Source: Ruminococcus sp. (lineage in GTDB: Bacteria > Bacillota > Clostridia > Oscillospirales > Ruminococcaceae). From it: a stretch of 45,025 bases of DNA. Each line of letters starts with the position of its first letter. Positions within the stretch are counted from its first letter, which is position 1. The notes beneath the pieces were generated by a model. That model ran no database searches, was not told the origin of the DNA, and saw only the letters and a program-made list of their open reading frames with translations. The stretch lies in NCBI GenBank assembly GCA_017523285.1, contig JAFWWU010000027.1, forward strand, positions 1 to 45,025, read 5' to 3'. A program made the position numbers and the translations under genes. Positions 29,468 through 40,084 of this stretch are shown here, piece by piece.

Positions 29468-31771
29468 GTGAATAAACGCTTGAATATCGGTCTTATTGTT
29501 CCGTCTGCGGATAACGAAAATACTGCTGAAATTATAAGCGGTGCTGTTAAAAGTGCAGAGGCAAACAACGTCAATCTTTTCATTATTCCTGTAAAATACA
29601 TAAGACATGATTACAGAAAAAAAGAAGATACAACATATCATTATCAGTTTACAAATCTGCTTGAATATATTACTCCTAAATGTCTTGACGGTGTGATTAT
29701 AGAATCCGCTTCTATCGGTACTTTTGTTAATGCCGAAGAAATAAAGAAGGCAATGAGGAGTTTTATCGATATCCCGATTGTCACCATTGCTCAGAAAATC
29801 GACGATATATCTTCAATCAGCTTTAATTGTGACGGCTTAAAGGACGCTATACGTCATCTTATAACTGTGCATAGAAAAAAGCATATTGCATTTGTAAGCG
29901 GTCCGTCATCGAATGAGGATTCCACAAACAGATACAACGCTTATCGTGAAGTATTGAGGGAGTTTGATATTCCGTTTGACAAATCGCTTTATGCTGTGGG
30001 TGACCTCAGCGAATTCAGTCATAATGCTGTAAGAGAGATTATGCTGAATAATCCCGATGTAGATGCTTTCTGCTTTGCCAATGACCGTATGGCTATAGCA
30101 GGTTATGAGGTTATTGCGGAAAACGGAAGAAGCGTAGGCAAGGATATTGCTGTTGTCGGATACGATGACGCTGTATCTTCTATGAAGATAGAACCAAAGC
30201 TTACTACTGTGCATACAGATATGTCTTATATGGCGTATAAGGCGCTTGAACAGTGCATAAATTGCATAAAGACAGGAACGAGAAACGATACTGTTCTTAA
30301 ATCTCAGGCTGTTTTCAGAGAGTCATGCGGATGTAGCTCACTGCTCAGCGATTTCAAATTCAAATTTGAGAGAACTGCTCTTGTTGAGTATAGCTGGGAA
30401 GAGCTTGTGAATGATGTTTCGGTTCTGTTCAACTGTGATATATCCGCCGCAGGTCTAGAGCCTATGTTTGAATATGCAGGCAGACTTGTAAAATATGCCG
30501 AGGGCGAAAATGAAAAAATAGACGTTACAGACGAGGTTCTGCTTTCGCTTTACAGAAAAATTGATTTCGATATGCTCGAATTTGATGTTTTCCTTTACGG
30601 TCTTGGAGTGCTTAAGAAGAAAATCCTTGATATTGCTTTTGATAACGGGCGATATAAGGCGATGGGCGAGATGACCGAGAAGATTACAAAGTTCCTTATT
30701 TGCAACGGATATGAAATAATACATAAAATTGAAAAGAGAAACAAAGTTCGTTATACCTCCACAGGAGAGGCTGTAAACAGCTTTATTTCGAATATCGATA
30801 AGAATGACAGCTTTTATACTTCAATTTGTCATAATCTTAACGGACTTGGTGTAAAAAGCTCGCATCTATTCCTTAATCAGCAGGTTGTGAACTGCTATGT
30901 GAACGGAGTGTGGCGACGTCCCGAAAAAATGAAATATGTATGCTTCTCTGAGGAGGGAATTGTTCAGGAGAATAGTGTGAATACTGTTGTAAACACAGAT
31001 GAAATTTTCAGACTCTGCTCGGAATCTGACAGACAGCATACAATTCTTATATCCCCGCTTTATTTTGCCGCTGAAAACTACGGAATTCTTGCAGCAGAGC
31101 TTGATATAAGGGATTATTCGTATTTTTCTGCTGTTATTCTCGATCAGGTCAATATTGCTCTTAAAATGAAATACCTTACCGAAGAGCAGGTTAAAATTCA
31201 TCAGAAGCTTCGTGAAAACCTTGAACAGATGAAGGATAACAACGAAAAGCTTACTAACGCTTCGATAATGGATGAGCTTACAGGAATTATGAACAGACGT
31301 GGATTTATCCAGTCGGCTTCGGAAATAATCTCAATGCCCGAAAACAAGGGCAGAGAAGCTCTGCTTGTATTTATCAGTATGAATAATATTAAAAAGGTGA
31401 ATGCTTCGTTTGGTAATACTGAGGGAGATTTTGCTCTTAAATCTATCGCAAATATCATCAAACGCTGTTTCAGAGGCAGGGATATTGTTGCAAGAATAGG
31501 CGGAGATGAATATGCCGCATTTGCTTTTGTGGAGGTTCCTGATATTCAGGAAATCCTTAAAAGAAGAATTGCTCAGTATTTCGATGACCTTAATCAGAAA
31601 AGCGGTAAGCCGTATTTCATTACCGTAAGTCTTGGAATGTATAAATTCAATTGCGGACCTAAAGTAGCTTTATCCGATGTGATGAAACATACAGACGAAT
31701 CGCTCAGAGAAAACAAAAAAAATAAGCCAAGCGGCATAATGAAGCCGACAAAGCTTAGTCTTACAATATAA
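29468..31771 (+). CDS. LacI-type sensor fused to a GGDEF domain
   Basis: Multidomain signalling protein, 767 residues, with a GTG start preceded by GGAGG. Residues 1-285 match the periplasmic-binding-protein-like ligand domain of LacI/GalR regulators (GLIVPSADNENTAEI, IAFVSGPSSNEDS, DAFCFANDRMAIAGYEV, VVGYDDA) but no DNA-binding domain or membrane segment is present, so it probably senses a cytosolic ligand. Residues 285-570 are of unclear fold, a coil spans 570-600, then a GGDEF domain with GGDEY at 678-682 and an RxxD I-site at 669-672. In the metal strand VFISMNN the expected Asp is Ser637, although the guanine-contacting N645 and D654 remain. Cyclase activity is therefore doubtful; c-di-GMP binding at the I-site remains possible. 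Confidence 0.85.
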   Translation: MNKRLNIGLIVPSADNENTAEIISGAVKSAEANNVNLFIIPVKYIRHDYRKKEDTTYHYQFTNLLEYITPKCLDGVIIESASIGTFVNAEEIKKAMRSFIDIPIVTIAQKIDDISSISFNCDGLKDAIRHLITVHRKKHIAFVSGPSSNEDSTNRYNAYREVLREFDIPFDKSLYAVGDLSEFSHNAVREIMLNNPDVDAFCFANDRMAIAGYEVIAENGRSVGKDIAVVGYDDAVSSMKIEPKLTTVHTDMSYMAYKALEQCINCIKTGTRNDTVLKSQAVFRESCGCSSLLSDFKFKFERTALVEYSWEELVNDVSVLFNCDISAAGLEPMFEYAGRLVKYAEGENEKIDVTDEVLLSLYRKIDFDMLEFDVFLYGLGVLKKKILDIAFDNGRYKAMGEMTEKITKFLICNGYEIIHKIEKRNKVRYTSTGEAVNSFISNIDKNDSFYTSICHNLNGLGVKSSHLFLNQQVVNCYVNGVWRRPEKMKYVCFSEEGIVQENSVNTVVNTDEIFRLCSESDRQHTILISPLYFAAENYGILAAELDIRDYSYFSAVILDQVNIALKMKYLTEEQVKIHQKLRENLEQMKDNNEKLTNASIMDELTGIMNRRGFIQSASEIISMPENKGREALLVFISMNNIKKVNASFGNTEGDFALKSIANIIKRCFRGRDIVARIGGDEYAAFAFVEVPDIQEILKRRIAQYFDDLNQKSGKPYFITVSLGMYKFNCGPKVALSDVMKHTDESLRENKKNKPSGIMKPTKLSLTI

Positions 31772-33032: not shown

Positions 33033-34388
33033 TCAACCTGCATTTACAGCGTTAAGTCCGCTTTTGAGAGTATATGTGCCGTAATCCTTGTTATCGATAT
33101 TTACGCTTAGTGATGAACCTGTCGGAACATCTGATGACATTATCATTATGCATTTGTAGCTGTTATGAGGATTGAGGGTTACAAGATCGCTGTTGTTCTT
33201 TTTGATTTTTATTGTAGAGTTTGCAGGCATTGCAGCTGAGAATGCTGCTACAAAGCAAGGTGCTGACATCGATGAAGGCTGAGTCACGGCATTTCCTGCG
33301 GCATAAAGAGTTCCGCCTGTATATGTAAAGCCTGATTGTGCAAATACTGCACTCTTTTCTTCCTTTGTTCCGCCGTAAACTATGGTTTTACCACCGTTTA
33401 TGTTCATTGTGCCTTTTGATTTTAGTCCGTTTGTGCCGCCTTTGATGTTCAGCGTTCCGTCGTTTATTGTTATATCATCATTCGCCATAATGCCTGTCTT
33501 TTTTGATGTGATATTGATTGTTCCTGACTGGATTATAACGTCATCGTCGCTTGAGATGCCATGAGCATTATTTGAATTGATGTTAAGAGTTCCATTGCCC
33601 TTGATTGTAATTGTATCGTTTGAGAAGAGTGCACCGTCGTTGATTTTATCAGTGCCGCCGTCTGTGATAGTTGAGGTTGTACCGTCTACAAGCTCGATAA
33701 CTATTTTCTTGGCGTCGGAAATAAAAATTGCAGGGCCCGATGAATTTGAAATGTTTACGCCGTCAAGGAATATTTTGACCTTTTCCTTTGTATTTACTTC
33801 AAGCTGTCCGTTTGAAATCTTTCCGCTTATTCTGTAATCACCGCCAGCTGTGATGAGTGCTTTTGTGCCTGTTACAGTAATATTGCTTCCTGTTGATGAA
33901 ATTGCTGAGCCGAACTTGATTTCTCCTGTATATACTTCTTCTGGCGCAGGAGCTTCTGTTGGTGCTTGTGTCGGAGCTTCTGTTGCAGGCTGATTTCCCT
34001 CTGAATTATTGGATGAGGAATTATTCTGCTGTGAATTTCCCGACTGTGTGCCGCCTGTATTGTTTTCCTGAGGCTTGGTTGTCTGTGTAGCTTCGGGAGT
34101 TTTATTGTCAGCAGGTGCGGTTGTCTGAGTTTCGGAATTATTATCATTTGTTGAATCAGCTGCCTGAGTTGTGGTTGTTTCAGCCTGACTATTTTCTGTA
34201 TCAGTTGATGAATCACTGCTGCTGTCAGAATTATTGCTTTCGGAATCTTCTGTTGGCTCGGTTGCTGAAACTGAGCTTTCGAGAGCTATTTTGCTGTTGT
34301 TGCCTGATGTTTTCTTTTCACATCCTGTTGCTGTACATACGAGAATGATTGCAGACAGTAATGCTGAAAAGCGTTTTATTTTATCCAT
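33033..34388 (-). CDS. Lipoprotein with beta-helix-like carbohydrate-binding domain (DUF4353 type)
   Basis: Exported lipoprotein, 451 residues. Lipobox ATGC with the lipidated Cys at about residue 23, a long Ser/Thr/Asn/Gln-rich spacer (about 28-150), then a domain of short repeats of the kind NGTLNIKGGTNGLKSKGTMNING that should form a right-handed beta-helix. The pattern VTGTKALITAGGDYRISGKISNGQLEV...KIFLDGVNIS is the carbohydrate-binding-domain-containing (DUF4353) pattern, also present in the dockerin protein at 36314. The true start is taken as ATG 34388 rather than the in-frame GTG nine bases before. It lies downstream of DUF4956 after a hairpin. Its ligand is unknown. Confidence 0.85.
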   Translation of the reverse strand: MDKIKRFSALLSAIILVCTATGCEKKTSGNNSKIALESSVSATEPTEDSESNNSDSSSDSSTDTENSQAETTTTQAADSTNDNNSETQTTAPADNKTPEATQTTKPQENNTGGTQSGNSQQNNSSSNNSEGNQPATEAPTQAPTEAPAPEEVYTGEIKFGSAISSTGSNITVTGTKALITAGGDYRISGKISNGQLEVNTKEKVKIFLDGVNISNSSGPAIFISDAKKIVIELVDGTTSTITDGGTDKINDGALFSNDTITIKGNGTLNINSNNAHGISSDDDVIIQSGTINITSKKTGIMANDDITINDGTLNIKGGTNGLKSKGTMNINGGKTIVYGGTKEEKSAVFAQSGFTYTGGTLYAAGNAVTQPSSMSAPCFVAAFSAAMPANSTIKIKKNNSDLVTLNPHNSYKCIMIMSSDVPTGSSLSVNIDNKDYGTYTLKSGLNAVNAG

Positions 34389-34424
34389 AATAATCACCCA
34401 TTTTATATATTTTTATAGAACAAA

Positions 34425-34466: not shown

Positions 34467-35216
34467 TTAATTTTCGTAAATTTTATCGTCGTATTTGAAT
34501 AATACGAGATTGATGTTGAGGTTTCCGTTTAATGCTCTGAGTTCGTCGATGAACTGCTTCTGATTGATTTCGTCCTTAACGTCAATGCTGTAAATAAGCT
34601 CGAAAAGTGTACCGAAATTTGTTGTTTTAACTCTTCTGAGTTTGTAGAATGTTGTATATTTGCTGAGAACAGGATCGAAAACGCCTTTGTAATCGAGGTT
34701 TTCAGGAATAGTGATTTTGAGTGTCATGTGATTGATTTTACAGCCGCCGAAATTGATTGTATCGGTAATGAAGAGGATTGCACCGAGTATGAGGAAGAAA
34801 ACAACTGCAAATCCGATGTATCCCATACCGCATGCAACGCCTGTTGCCATTGAATAGAAGATGTATGCAATATCTCTCGGGTCGCCGGGTACGCTTCTGA
34901 AACGGACAAGTGTGAATGCGCCTGCAAGGCTCAATGCTCCGTATGTAGTGTTTATGAGGAGAAGAATGAGAGCAACTATTGCAGGGAGCATAATCATTGT
35001 CATTACATAACTCTGTGAATAGCCCTCTTTGCGTCTTGTAATCATATATATAAGACTTGTGAGTACACCGAGGATAATTGAAGAAATAACACATATAAAG
35101 AAAGGTTCAACTTCTATTGCGGAAGAAGCTGTTGATGCAGTTCCCTGAAGCACCTCTTCAATCGGACTGTCGGCTGTGCGGTCAAGAACATTCTTGAAAA
35201 TATCGATTTTTGCCAT
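34467..35216 (-). CDS. DUF4956 membrane protein
   Basis: A 249-residue protein with three or four membrane segments (about 40-60, 70-90, 95-112, 120-150) including the conserved stretch LAGAFTLVRFRSVPGDPRDIAYIFYSMATG that marks DUF4956, and a soluble C-terminal domain of about 85 residues (KITIPENLDYKGVFDPVL...). DUF4956 is often encoded beside VTC polyphosphate-polymerase proteins, as here, where its ATG overlaps the VTC stop by one base. Its role is unknown; a membrane partner or transport part for the polymerase is the usual guess. Confidence 0.92.
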   Translation of the reverse strand: MAKIDIFKNVLDRTADSPIEEVLQGTASTASSAIEVEPFFICVISSIILGVLTSLIYMITRRKEGYSQSYVMTMIMLPAIVALILLLINTTYGALSLAGAFTLVRFRSVPGDPRDIAYIFYSMATGVACGMGYIGFAVVFFLILGAILFITDTINFGGCKINHMTLKITIPENLDYKGVFDPVLSKYTTFYKLRRVKTTNFGTLFELIYSIDVKDEINQKQFIDELRALNGNLNINLVLFKYDDKIYEN

Positions 35217-35959
35217 TATACATTTACACTCCTGTTTTCAAATATTTTATTGTAAATAAATGTTTGATAAGCTTTTCCGTATTTTGAAAAGCTCGTCTTG
35301 TAAATCTGAAGCTCTGAGAGCTTGTTTATAAGCCATTCAGGGACAGAATCGGAAATTTTTACTTCCATAAGGCGCTGGTCTGCACCGATAATCTGTGAGC
35401 CGTAGCTTGGCTCACTGAGAGTCAGATTATCACGTCTTTCTGTAATAAGACGGTCAAATGTCAGTCTGAAATCCTTGTTGTCCTTGCCGAAAAAGGCGCG
35501 GCGCTGATAGCTTATGTACTGTTTTGGCTTGACGTAATAATTGTTGAGGAAAACGTCAAGCTCGGTGAAAACCTGCTGAGTGATGTACTTAGAGGTTTCA
35601 GGTTTTTTGCGGGTTTTAAGGTATTCGTCTGCTTCTGCGAGAGTCATTGTGACACGTCTTTTAGCAACAACACCGCCGATTTTCTTTTTGATTTCAAGAA
35701 AAACTATATCATCGGGTTTGGCAGGTGAATAATAGCTTCTGAGTCTGATTTTTTCCTTATAATAGGGCTTAGAGAGAGATTCCCTTATAAGAAAATCATC
35801 ATTTGTGTCATAATAGATGTTGTAAACTCCGTATTCTTTGCCGTCGATGCAGTATTTATCGGGATTCATATACTCATCAATTACTTCCATAATCCCGTTG
35901 TACTGCTCCATGTTAAGCAGAAACTTGATTTCCTTACGCGCAAAAGTACTTATAGCCAA
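35216..35959 (-). CDS. VTC-domain polyphosphate polymerase
   Basis: A 247-residue single-domain VTC protein, the fold that in yeast Vtc4 makes polyphosphate from ATP inside a basic tunnel. Tunnel-type residues are all visible: ARKEIKFLL at the N-terminus, KIRLRSYY, FLEIKKK, YQRRAFFG, RLTFDRLI, LMEVKIS and SFSKYGKAYQTF. No membrane segment; the DUF4956 partner supplies that. The start is a TTG with two tandem AGGAGG-type sites upstream, suggesting strong translation. It is the first gene of VTC, DUF4956 and, after a hairpin, the lipoprotein, and is divergent from the dockerin gene. Confidence 0.92.
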   Translation of the reverse strand: MAISTFARKEIKFLLNMEQYNGIMEVIDEYMNPDKYCIDGKEYGVYNIYYDTNDDFLIRESLSKPYYKEKIRLRSYYSPAKPDDIVFLEIKKKIGGVVAKRRVTMTLAEADEYLKTRKKPETSKYITQQVFTELDVFLNNYYVKPKQYISYQRRAFFGKDNKDFRLTFDRLITERRDNLTLSEPSYGSQIIGADQRLMEVKISDSVPEWLINKLSELQIYKTSFSKYGKAYQTFIYNKIFENRSVNV

Positions 35960-36072
35960 AATATTTTCCTCCTTCCTCCTTATTTCCCAAATAATATTTT
36001 ACATATCAATTCTTAAAATAGTCTTAATTATTTTTAAAAAGTTATGTGAAAAATATAAAAAACAACATTTCA

Positions 36073-36196: not shown

Positions 36197-36235
36197 TTTA
36201 AGGTGAATTTAAGATGAATTTAAGATTGTTTTAAG
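36197..36235 (+). promoter_or_regulatory. Four-fold TTTAAG direct repeat (probable response-regulator operator)
   Basis: TTTAAG occurs at 36197, 36208, 36219 and 36230, each pair separated by exactly five bases (11-bp period, one helical turn). This is the geometry of OmpR/PhoB-family binding sites, and TTTAAG-N5-TTTAAG is the known CiaR site of streptococci. A -10-like GATAAAAT begins about nine bases after the last repeat, with no -35, fitting an activated promoter for the dockerin gene. The regulator is not in the window. Confidence 0.7.
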
Positions 36236-36313
36236 GTTTCGGTGATAAAATGCAGATAGTATCGGAGTGGGAAAATAAATATGGAATATTCAAGATGAGA
36301 AAAAAGGAGTTGT

Positions 36314-37705
36314 ATGAAAATGAACAGTTCAAAAAGAATTAAAAAGCTTCTTGCGGGAGTTGCCGCTGTATGCGTTACAGCTTCGGCACTGCCTGCAATA
36401 CCTGCGTCTGCGGCTACGCTTGCGCTCGGCGATATTGACCTTGACGGCGCTGTTGACGTATTTGATCTTACCATGCTGAGGAATTATATTCTTCAACGTG
36501 AGGGGAGCGAATTAAGCGGAAATTCTGCACTTACAGCTGATGTCAATCAGGATAGTCTTGTTGATATTGTTGATGCTGTTGCGCTCAGCAGAAGTATTGT
36601 AACAGGAAAAATCAACTACATTGAAACTGCCGAGGATATTACATATATCCACCTCAACGGAAGTTCAATTACAGTTGACGGTACAAATGCTGTTGCAGAT
36701 GGCTCAAAGGTTACTATTTCAGCTTCGGGTACATATTATGTTGACGGAAGTCTTACTGACGGACAGATTGTTGTAAGTGTAGCTGATGAAACTGCTGATA
36801 CAGGCACAGTAAAGATTTTCCTTAACGGAGTAAATATCACAGGCACATCACAGCCTGCAATTTACATCGAAAATGCTGAAAACACTTCGCTTAATCTCGT
36901 AAGCGGAAAGACCAATGTAATAAACGGCGGCACAGCTGCTTATGCAGGCGATTATCTTGAATGTGCTGTAATTCATGCTAAAGATGATATGACTATTAAG
37001 GGAAGCGGAACTCTTGAGGTAAACGCTCCTGTTCAGCACGCAATTCATTGTAATAATGATATCAAGTTCAATGGCGGTACTGTTAATATTATCACAGAAA
37101 CAGAGGATGCTGTAAGAGGTAAATCTTCAGTTACAGTAAAAGATGGTATTCTCAATATCGAAGCTGAGGGCGATGGTATCAAGTCATCAAAGGGTGATGT
37201 TGCAATTGAAGGCGGTACTGTTCTTATCAAGGCAGGAAATGACGCTATTCAGGCTGAAACTACAATTGATATTTCAGGCGGTAATGTCACAGCAAGCGGT
37301 GACAGAGGTCTTACTGCTGTTACAGGCATCAATATTACAGGCGGAACAGTAGTTGCTACTGCTACCGACAATCAGGCAACGCTTATTAATGCAACTCAGG
37401 GAGCAATGCTTCTCAATTGCATTGATGATACATCAAATACAGACGGCTGCTGGAAGAAGGCAAATGCAATCAGTATATCTGATTCTATAACTGCAAAACC
37501 ACTTAAAAAGTTCAAGTATGTTCTGATTAGTGACGCTACAATCAAAAATGGCGCTACTTATACGCTGACAAATGAAAGTAACGGCTCTACCGTAACCCAC
37601 ACAAGCGGAGCGTCAAAAACTTTTGCTATGTCGGCAGTATCTACTGAATTCAATAGCGTTAATCTTGGAACAACCTCTCAGACTGAAACGGTGGACGGTT
37701 ACTGA
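36314..37705 (+). CDS. Dockerin and carbohydrate-binding-domain protein, N-terminal part (ends at a premature TGA)
   Basis: Exported surface protein. A Sec signal peptide (1-34, ending ASA) is followed directly by a type I dockerin at about 37-98, with two calcium-loop repeats GDIDLDGAVDVFDLTMLRNYI and ADVNQDSLVDIVDAVALSRSI (the second degenerate in places), which would dock onto a cohesin of a cellulosome-type scaffold. Then a DUF4353-type beta-helix domain (about 105-440): SASGTYYVDGSLTDGQIVV, VKIFLNGVNITG and NGGTVNI repeats, as in the lipoprotein at 33033. The 463-residue frame ends in TGA at 37703-37705, but coding continues in the same frame to 39376, so this is very likely the first half of a gene of about 1020 codons. 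GGAG precedes the ATG. Confidence 0.85.
   Translation: MKMNSSKRIKKLLAGVAAVCVTASALPAIPASAATLALGDIDLDGAVDVFDLTMLRNYILQREGSELSGNSALTADVNQDSLVDIVDAVALSRSIVTGKINYIETAEDITYIHLNGSSITVDGTNAVADGSKVTISASGTYYVDGSLTDGQIVVSVADETADTGTVKIFLNGVNITGTSQPAIYIENAENTSLNLVSGKTNVINGGTAAYAGDYLECAVIHAKDDMTIKGSGTLEVNAPVQHAIHCNNDIKFNGGTVNIITETEDAVRGKSSVTVKDGILNIEAEGDGIKSSKGDVAIEGGTVLIKAGNDAIQAETTIDISGGNVTASGDRGLTAVTGINITGGTVVATATDNQATLINATQGAMLLNCIDDTSNTDGCWKKANAISISDSITAKPLKKFKYVLISDATIKNGATYTLTNESNGSTVTHTSGASKTFAMSAVSTEFNSVNLGTTSQTETVDGY
37703..37705 (+). other. Premature in-frame stop (TGA) splitting the dockerin protein
   Basis: The codon follows GACGGTTAC and is followed by ATAGCACTTTCAGGC in the same frame. TGG (Trp) to TGA is the simplest origin. 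Other genes here end in TGA normally, so Trp recoding of UGA is not suggested. Confidence 0.8.
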
Positions 37706-39376
37706 ATAGCACTTTCAGGCAACGGAATTTCTACAAATGCACCTGCTGAAACTGCGTCTGTTGCCGACGGTGTAATTACCGTAAAGCAGCCGGGGGTATT
37801 TGCTGTCAGCGGCTCTATGGACGGAGGACAAATCTTCGTAAACGTAGACAAAACAGCATATCCCGACGGTGTTGTTGAGCTTGATTTAATGGGTGCAGAG
37901 CTCACAAATACAAAAAACTCTCCGATATATGTTGAGTCAATAGGCGATGAAGTTCAGCTTGTAGCCAAAAGCGGCACAGTAAATACAATTTCAGACGGAA
38001 CTTCATATACAAATGCTGATTCCGATTGCGGAGCTGTATATTCAAAGGATGACCTTAAAATCAAGGGCAGCGGCTCTCTTACAGTAAACGGCAATTGTCA
38101 GGACGGAATAGTCTGCAAGAACGACCTTAAAATATATAACGGAAATATTACTGTAAATGCCGTTGATGACGCTGTAAGAGGCAAAGACAGTATTACAATA
38201 GGTAATGATGCTGATACTGATTTCAGCACATTAAGCCTTACTGTGAAATCAACTTCGGGCGACGGTATAAAGTCTACTGAAACTGATACAACAACAGGTA
38301 AGGGCAATGTAACAATAAACGGCGGAAAGCTCAACATTACAGCATATTCTGACGGTATTCATGCTTCACAGCTTCTTGATGTGAATGGCGGAGATATCAC
38401 AATAGAAACAACCTGTCCTGCGTCTTCATCGGGCTCAACAGGCGGAATGTGGGGCGGAAGTTCAGGAAGTACAGATACTGCTGTAAGTGCAAAGGGACTT
38501 AAAGCAGGTACAACTGATGATACAACATCTGCTGAAATTACAGGCGTTATAAATGTAAATGCAGGAAATATCAATATCAATTCAACTGACGACTGCGTTC
38601 ACGCAAACGGAAATATCCTTCTTGCAGGCGGCAGACTTGACCTTAAATCAAGTGATGACGCTGTTCATACTGATGCTGACCTTACGATAGGTAACGGTAC
38701 TGCTTCAACATACGATGATATAGTAGTTGTTGTAAGTTCTGCATACGAAGGTATGGAAGGGCTTAACATAACTCAGAACAGCGGAACGGTAATTGTCAAT
38801 TCTACTGATGACGGATACAATGCCGCAGGCGGTGCTGACGGCTCAGGAAATATGTCGCCAGGCGGCTGGGGAGGCGGTTTCGGCTCTACTTCGGGCGGAA
38901 ATTACTCTCTTAACCTTAAAGGCGGATTTGCTCTTGTAAATGTTACAGACGGCGACCATGACGGTTTTGATTCAAATGGAGCTCTTACTGTTTCAGGCGG
39001 TATTGCTATAACAAACGGCAACGAGCCTTTTGACTGCGACGGAACAAAATCCTATACAGGCGGAGTTTATGTAATAAACAAAGGCTCAGGCGGTATGGGT
39101 GGAATGGGCGGTATGGGAGGAAGCGAAATGGCTTCTACTCTTACAGCTTCATGCTCGGCAGGCTCAGGTACAAGAATTACACTTGCAGACGGCTCAAAGG
39201 TTATAGCATCATTCCTTGCAAACAAGAGTGTTTCAACTCTTACAGCAGGATGCAGCAGCAATACAGGTGCTAAGTTTTATACAGGTGGTACTGTTTCAGG
39301 TACAGAGCTTATAAAAACAAGCAATCAGAGCGTCTATGTAAACGGAACGCTTTCAGGCGGAACTCAGTGTAATTAA
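37706..39376 (+). CDS. Second half of the dockerin/carbohydrate-binding protein (same frame after the TGA)
   Basis: Directly after the TGA the frame continues without interruption for 556 codons: IALSGNGISTNAP, a link, then a second DUF4353-type domain with SMDGGQIFVNVDKTAYPDGVVELDLMGAELTN, SGSLTVNGNC, NINGGKLNI and many short beta-helix repeats, Gly-rich patches (GGMGGMGGMGG) and a C-terminal piece SNQSVYVNGTLSGG. The first ATG is at 37817 and has no ribosome binding site, so independent translation from there is doubtful. It reads as the second half of the preceding gene, which would carry two tandem binding domains after the dockerin. Confidence 0.75.
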   Translation: MALSGNGISTNAPAETASVADGVITVKQPGVFAVSGSMDGGQIFVNVDKTAYPDGVVELDLMGAELTNTKNSPIYVESIGDEVQLVAKSGTVNTISDGTSYTNADSDCGAVYSKDDLKIKGSGSLTVNGNCQDGIVCKNDLKIYNGNITVNAVDDAVRGKDSITIGNDADTDFSTLSLTVKSTSGDGIKSTETDTTTGKGNVTINGGKLNITAYSDGIHASQLLDVNGGDITIETTCPASSSGSTGGMWGGSSGSTDTAVSAKGLKAGTTDDTTSAEITGVINVNAGNININSTDDCVHANGNILLAGGRLDLKSSDDAVHTDADLTIGNGTASTYDDIVVVVSSAYEGMEGLNITQNSGTVIVNSTDDGYNAAGGADGSGNMSPGGWGGGFGSTSGGNYSLNLKGGFALVNVTDGDHDGFDSNGALTVSGGIAITNGNEPFDCDGTKSYTGGVYVINKGSGGMGGMGGMGGSEMASTLTASCSAGSGTRITLADGSKVIASFLANKSVSTLTAGCSSNTGAKFYTGGTVSGTELIKTSNQSVYVNGTLSGGTQCN

Positions 39377-39547: not shown

Positions 39548-40084
39548 ATGGTGAGAAGAGTTATTCTCAATGGAACGACAGATGATAAAATTATAACTTG
39601 TCTGAAAACAGCAGGGTGGTATAAGGGACGCTGCGTTGATTTAACTGAGGTAAAAGCTTTTTATACATCATTTGGGGTTACAATTCCAGAATATGCCGAG
39701 AATTTCTTAAAAGAATACTATGGAATCTCGGATAGCTGGTATTTCAATGAGTCAGAAGATGCATTACTCAACAGAGCACCTGATATCGAATTCAGTCTGT
39801 ATCCAACACATGATGAAAGCGTTGATGAAGAACGTTTTGAACAGGATTTCGCAGAAACGTTTGACAGATATCTTGAAAATGTGCAATTATTTTCTGGTGA
39901 GTCGGCGTTCTTCGTTGGTGAGATAGGTTATTACTATCCAGCAATGGTGTTTATTGCACAATCTGGCAAGATATATACCGCACATAATTACGATGATTTG
40001 ATTCATTGTTATGAATCTGTACCCGAAATGCTTAAATATGATTTTATTCATTCCGATGAATGGATTTCTGTAAGTGTGAAATAG
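39548..40084 (+). CDS. SUKH-3-type immunity protein (orphan)
   Basis: A 178-residue soluble protein with the SUKH-3 pattern: TAGWYKGRCVDL near the start, IPEYAENFLKEYYGI, a central acidic stretch, then SAFFVGEIGYYYPAMVFIAQSGKIYTAHNYDDLIHCY and a Trp-containing end. SUKH proteins neutralise polymorphic toxins, mostly nucleases. No toxin is next to it: the left neighbour is the surface dockerin gene and the right neighbour an acyltransferase, so it is an orphan immunity gene, as often found in gut clostridia. It has its own promoter and terminator, and a TAG stop. Confidence 0.8.
   Translation: MVRRVILNGTTDDKIITCLKTAGWYKGRCVDLTEVKAFYTSFGVTIPEYAENFLKEYYGISDSWYFNESEDALLNRAPDIEFSLYPTHDESVDEERFEQDFAETFDRYLENVQLFSGESAFFVGEIGYYYPAMVFIAQSGKIYTAHNYDDLIHCYESVPEMLKYDFIHSDEWISVSVK

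Follow-up and report, generated by a model that had tools for sequence, protein, structure and literature searches.

A TTTAAG array between divergent surface-protein and VTC genes

The window, by which we mean the whole 45,025-nt stretch of Ruminococcus DNA analysed here, carries on its + strand a gene for a secreted-type protein (36314..37705) in which Pfam recognised a type I dockerin at residues 38–95 and a Cthe_2159 domain at residues 129–356. All 60 genus genomes, the host included, encode a match to this protein (E 1e-20 or better). Its frame ends at an in-frame TGA (37703-37705), after which a second Cthe_2159 part continues in the same frame (37706..39376, + strand; ORF listed at 37817-39376). 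The open frame spans 996–1,125 aa in 26 of the 29 fetched relatives of the surface-protein gene, versus 463 aa plus the second part here; the TGA may be a nonsense change, an assembly error or a real split. Oriented away from this gene, on the − strand, lies a presumed operon that according to Pfam encodes a VTC-domain protein of the predicted polyphosphate polymerase type (35216..35959; E 1.2e-39), followed by a DUF4956 protein (34467..35216) and a Cthe_2159-domain protein (33033..34397). The window also encodes a sugar-binding-type Peripla_BP domain fused to GGDEF (29468-31771) and, close to the surface-protein genes, a SUKH-3 immunity-type protein (39548-40084).

In the intergenic region, four exact copies of TTTAAG stand on the + strand at 36197-36202, 36208-36213, 36219-36224 and 36230-36235, with five-base spacers and an 11-bp period, as the first-pass annotation of this DNA had described. 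It had also noted a −10-like element with no −35, and both observations hold: the −10 TAAAAT (36246..36251, + strand), within GATAAAAT at 36244-36251, follows the last TTTAAG by exactly 10 nt, and AGATTG at 36223-36228, where a 17-nt spacer would place a −35, is no consensus hexamer. What had been missed is a second, weaker box on the − strand, ATTAAG-N5-TTTAAG (ATTAAGACTATTTTAAG, 36028-36012), which faces the VTC operon and is followed, again after exactly 10 nt, by a −10 TAAAAT (35996..36001, − strand). G081, the closest relative (82% protein identity), has all four units exact and keeps the opposite box with identical sequence, while its remaining intergenic DNA looks different when the unaligned sequences are compared by eye. 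The promoter region had no match in a phage collection.

The two strands of the window together contain 55 copies of TTTAAG; if these fell independently, about 1e-8 sets of four in register would be expected. Throughout the 2.84-Mb host genome (174 contigs), three or more exact units in register occurred only at the array (two overlapping matches; none in the reversed control), and four units with up to three mismatches occurred at one place, the array at 36197. Many random occurrences across the genome, which the first-pass annotation had seen as counting against its idea, are not what the scan showed for the array, which is unique. The single TTTAAG-N5-TTTAAG pair is near background, with five exact matches, three of them inside the array, versus three in the reversed control. 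Two-copy sites with up to two mismatches likewise showed no excess over chance in the window (15 versus 12.9 expected). In this genome, the two-copy site alone is therefore weak and uninformative evidence.

Genus-wide, among Ruminococcus of gut and rumen, 58 of 60 genomes, host included, contain the pattern TTTAAG-N5-TTTAAG-N(4-16)-TATAAT, with 107 matches versus 4 in the reversed control. Of the 107, 88 place TATAAT exactly 10 nt behind the box, and all 10 matches with a gap of 15 have another −10-like word at 10; the box spacer was ATTAT in 60 and ACTAT in 18. Three-copy arrays with at most one mismatch were present in 24 of 60 genomes, namely 23 of 36 from the genus (host included) and 1 of 24 outside it, with 60 matches versus 5 for the reversed pattern. 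Among named genomes, the strict pattern occurred in at least 119 stretches; 71 of the 80 listed titles are Ruminococcus, including 13 R. flavefaciens, and the other nine are Clostridiales/Clostridia (3), Clostridium (1), Oscillospiraceae (2), Anaerotruncus (1) and Alistipes (2). Two contigs from a metagenome-assembled genome titled Alistipes (L144, L168) have the box in front of genes from the target clusters described below, and this genome is perhaps a mislabelled or mixed Ruminococcus bin. Counting a unit from four of six letters, we found a box of two to five units in 29 of 30 loci of the surface-protein gene (the host's and 29 relatives; the exception is L383), with arrays of up to four to five units. 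Loss of the repeats in relatives, which the first-pass annotation had named as grounds for doubt, is thus not what is seen: 28 of the 29 fetched relatives have the box upstream.

For a survey of the genes behind the box, 238 loci were fetched around sites, and 181 distinct sites with a gap of 10 were kept; as the sites came from exact-motif searches, among the matches listed, weaker sites are absent from this set. Three classes account for 160 of the 181 listed sites, comprising secreted-type proteins (79), VTC genes (44) and a small RNA (37), and the other 21 fall into other or unassigned classes. All 79 secreted-type targets form one BLAST-linked cluster, and Pfam VTC was found in each of the 44 VTC-class targets. 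Within the secreted cluster, Pfam domains were read in 71 of 78 distinct frames (the seven longest left out, and many frames cut at locus ends), giving Cthe_2159 in 61, dockerin in 29, LTD in 5 and CotH in 4. Sites detected in the host genome include the two in the window, one before an LTD-CotH-dockerin gene on contig C87, one before the small RNA and one upstream of a response regulator gene on contig C141. Four of the 181 sites (L080, L220, L262, L265) precede a small gene whose product of 33–37 aa is hydrophobic at its start and contains a C-x-AAK motif; it is perhaps a membrane peptide of the same regulon. At L212 (about 1945, − strand), a box with a −10 precedes an apparent pair of tandem tRNA genes and is possibly a chance match.

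A conserved, predicted small RNA behind gene-less boxes

Many boxes with no gene behind them are followed by a conserved RNA, of which we collected 37 copies. Its layout is a 5′ hairpin (GGATTaagtAATCC), an unpaired stretch (CCCAATTCCCCTTCTATATTTATT) and a terminator; in the host genome, it is predicted from the sequence to be about 90 nt long with the unpaired stretch UCCCCC-AAUU-CCCC. A script found the terminator in 24 of the 37 copies (84–128 nt), and in an alignment of 17 copies, six of the eight pairs of the terminator stem are changed on both sides and thus covary. RNAalifold, run on the same 17-copy alignment, called the terminator and did not call the 5′ hairpin. The 5′ hairpin is accordingly assigned from the fold of the host copy, which forms both hairpins, and from the counts of its closing pair, which in copies with short loops is T-A (29) or C-G (5), three further copies being extended or unread. 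The C-G copies may all go back to a single change.

A covariance model built from the 17 copies found the RNA in 52 of 60 genus genomes, twice in six of them, and placed the host copy at C87:20014-20102 on the − strand. At loci found in this way, for which no promoter had been asked, the box lay right upstream in 29 of 30 by script and in the thirtieth on inspection. With the same model, six box-bearing genomes gave no copy (G013, G014, G016, G023, G078, G083). Locus L153 has two boxes and two tandem copies (1991 and 2234), the first with an enlarged 5′ region, and the copies at L120 and L244 have an enlarged 5′ region too. The nine RNA loci scanned against Rfam 15 gave no match at the RNA up to E 1, and the family is apparently new.

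The C-rich unpaired stretch suggests that the RNA probably binds Shine-Dalgarno regions. When duplex energies were computed for 56 start regions, taken from the window and from five host loci, the VTC gene ranked third, a weak indication, since strong Shine-Dalgarno sequences score well generally. An 18-nt complement of the RNA, sought in the host genome with up to three mismatches, was found only at the RNA itself, which points to no specific target. CAU occurs near the C-run in 13 of the 37 copies.

Its genomic setting also bears on whether the RNA is free. It could instead belong to downstream genes as their 5′ leader or attenuator: of the 33 copies whose neighbour could be read, 20 have the next ORF of at least 120 aa on their own strand, and in the host genome the start of a GHL10 gene lies about 70 nt beyond the RNA. 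We consider this unlikely, as the next ORF is convergent in the other 13 of the 33, the downstream genes vary between genomes, and a covarying terminator-like hairpin with its U-run closes the RNA.

A candidate regulator with the box in its own promoter

The host genome encodes 14 OmpR-type DNA-binding domains. When relatives of these were sought in the 238 loci (E 1e-10), a single one turned up, directly behind a gap-9 box, and it is 81% identical to the response regulator on contig C141 (7138-7818). The gene for this regulator overlaps by 4 nt with that for a histidine kinase (C141 5183-7141), in which Pfam recognised HisKA and HATPase_c only and which has a long proline/threonine-rich stretch. 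Upstream of the host regulator gene stands TTTAAG-TTTAT-TTCAAG-N9-TATAAT, and a site of the form TTTAAG-N5-TT(C/T/A)AA(G/T)-N9/10-TATAAT was found in all 30 C141-type loci (the host's and 29 congeners), where it scores 15–18 of 18. Ten other host regulators score 10–13 by the same measure (the script did not locate L016, L019 and L025). The box before the regulator has a gap of 9 in 26 of 29 loci (L300 left out) and a mostly imperfect second unit, whereas the targets have a gap of 10.

We compared the recognition helices of the host regulators with that of streptococcal CiaR, VVEVYVSKVRKKL, for which PMC3091779 gives V to I as the sole variation among streptococci. The helix of the C141 regulator, NIEVYISFLRKKL, is identical to it at 8 of 13 positions, the most among the nine host helices read (L016, L018, L019, L025 and L029 were left out of the 14), and the other eight share three to seven. 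Within the C141 type, the helix NIEVYISFLRKK(L/I) is identical in all 30 loci. In NCBIfam, 10 of the 14 host regulators were compared with their best 25 families each and passed no curated cut-off; solved structures matched many OmpR-type regulators, none named CiaR among the 58 matches listed.

Orthologues of the C141 regulator at 75% identity or more are present in 54 of 60 genus genomes. The two box-less genomes, G011 and G066, lack such an orthologue and the small RNA as well, and G011 has only a 54% homologue. Four box-bearing genomes gave no regulator at E 1e-60, with completeness of 68% (G021), 88% (G060), 98% (G070) and 81% (G083); incompleteness does not easily account for the absence in G070. 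Thirteen genomes have a second homologue of about 48–56% identity (G006, G007, G010, G019, G031, G034, G035, G064, G065, G071, G075, G079, G080). Outside the genus, a homologue at 50–62% identity was found in 20 of 146 genomes (E 1e-70), and at that threshold it was absent from the eight same-family genomes listed. A related direct repeat lies upstream in 14 of the 21 outside-genus loci scored, a level reached by at most 5 of 200 single-base shuffles, which fits an old autoregulation.

The first-pass annotation had proposed that an OmpR-family two-component system controls this locus through a CiaR-type box. The comparisons made here, which are of sequences, support that proposal, since the box recurs across the genus with a fixed gap before few gene classes and stands in the promoter of the regulator itself. 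As the link between box and regulator comes from promoter-level evidence, we asked whether another OmpR-type regulator of the host, for example of the L028 type, reads the box and has the C141 system as a mere target. The L028 helix shares 7 of 13 positions with that of CiaR, one less than C141, and G070 has the motif and the RNA with no C141-type regulator detected. Set against this are, for the C141 regulator, the closest helix read and a box in every one of the 30 upstream regions scored, the upstream repeats of its homologues outside the genus, and the score of 12 for the host L028 gene, which lacks such a box, and we consider it improbable that the C141 system is only a target.

Pho boxes, to which PhoB and PhoP bind, are direct repeats with an 11-bp period that replace the −35 element. 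This shared geometry, which the first-pass annotation had mentioned for PhoP-type sites, and the adjoining VTC-domain operon speak for a Pho box, which would couple the polyphosphate genes to phosphate starvation. The Pho hexamer is a different one, however, and the host pst locus on contig C61, in which Pfam recognised PBP_like_2, permease, ATPase and PhoU domains and behind which an OmpR-type regulator is encoded, has TTTACA-like words upstream instead of a TTTAAG array. We rejected the Pho box on this ground and regard the phosphate reading as very unlikely; nor do a small RNA and surface-protein targets suggest a phosphate regulon. Further PhoU loci on C75, C157 and C140 showed no four-unit array at the threshold of the script. 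That the array is an AT-rich chance arrangement or a functionless repeat, as the near-background count of the single pair in the host genome might suggest, has a negligible probability given the number of such arrays expected in the window, the retention of all four units in G081, and the fixed 10-nt gap and few target classes seen genus-wide.

Relation to CiaRH and the proposed circuit

According to PMC3091779, streptococcal CiaR binds TTTAAG-N5-TTTAAG, or NTTAAG-N5-TTTAAG, and CiaRH is apparently absent outside streptococci. In the same source, csRNA genes are predicted by a spacing of ten between box and TATAAT, and the csRNAs are presumed to base-pair at translation starts. CiaRH also feeds back on its own operon (PMC8317062), and our comparison draws on PMC8186281 as well. 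The likeness to the system described here is extensive: the box is the same and its last TTTAAG lies ten nt before a TATAAT −10, the candidate regulator is of the OmpR family and its helix fits (V/I)EVY(V/I)S..RKKL, the box stands before the regulator's own gene, and directly behind a box there is an RNA, its transcription predicted, with a stem-loop, an unpaired stretch and a terminator, as in the csRNAs.

The differences are as plain. The comparison with CiaR is of the helix only, and 8 of 13 positions agree, with three changes other than V to I. The host is a Ruminococcus, the targets are Cthe_2159, dockerin, LTD and CotH proteins and a VTC operon, the arrays reach four to five units, and the kinase has its proline/threonine-rich stretch. 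Unlike the csRNAs, the Ruminococcus RNA has C-runs, is mostly present in one copy per genome, and has the streptococcal nonamer (A/C)UCCUAAA(A/C) in none of the 37 copies. With an apparent Ruminococcus as host, the binder here is not streptococcal CiaR itself, and because the helix differs beyond the V/I changes, we do not equate the two: the C141 system appears CiaR-like in its box, geometry, own-gene site and small-RNA output, and identity as CiaR is not claimed.

A second parallel is Listeria LisRK, a two-component system that drives the LhrC RNAs, in which UCCC motifs bind a G-rich sequence before the start codon; such motifs bind Shine-Dalgarno regions in small RNAs of several low-GC bacteria (PMC4132741). 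The likeness lies in a two-component system driving RNAs with UCCC-type motifs, and the differences in the five LhrC copies, their other targets and LisR, for which that paper gives no consensus. In Clostridium perfringens, VTC-domain and CotH genes are close together in NELoc-2, as they are among the targets here, although the available part of PMC2879425 describes no common regulator for them. Among the matches listed in a search of literature titles and opening abstracts, there was no CiaR-like system or such RNA in Ruminococcus.

Taken from the sequence itself are the box, its fixed distance, its conservation, the target classes, the box in the regulator promoter and the covarying terminator; binding, activation and the action of the RNA we infer. 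On this basis, we predict that 36197..36235 is an operator for a CiaR-like response regulator, and it is likely that the array serves an activator-dependent promoter under the OmpR-family two-component system on C141. Once phosphorylated, the regulator would bind head-to-tail at TTTAAG-N5-TTTAAG, 10 nt upstream of the −10, where it would take the place of the missing −35 and recruit RNA polymerase. The two extra units of the array could admit a second dimer, which may make the response stronger or more graded. In the host, the system would switch on the dockerin/Cthe_2159 protein and the divergent VTC-DUF4956-Cthe_2159 operon, and likewise the LTD-CotH-dockerin protein on C87, the small RNA of about 90 nt and the regulator itself.

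What appears to be new is a CiaR-like circuit outside streptococci, together with an apparently new small RNA family. We lean towards the view that a circuit of the CiaRH/csRNA kind does exist outside streptococci, in which the same box and geometry would drive a surface programme and an RNA that masks ribosome-binding sites. If this is true, the wiring of box, helix and small RNA is far older than streptococci, or it evolved twice. It also becomes possible to ask whether a single DNA code, TTTAAG-N5-TTTAAG-N10-TATAAT read by an EVY(I/V)S..RKKL helix, is common to very distant Gram-positive lineages. For Ruminococcus, the genus of the fibre-degrading rumen bacterium R. flavefaciens, the analysis would assign genes of unknown role, namely VTC/DUF4956, Cthe_2159, and CotH with dockerins, to a coherent regulon with its regulator and operator.
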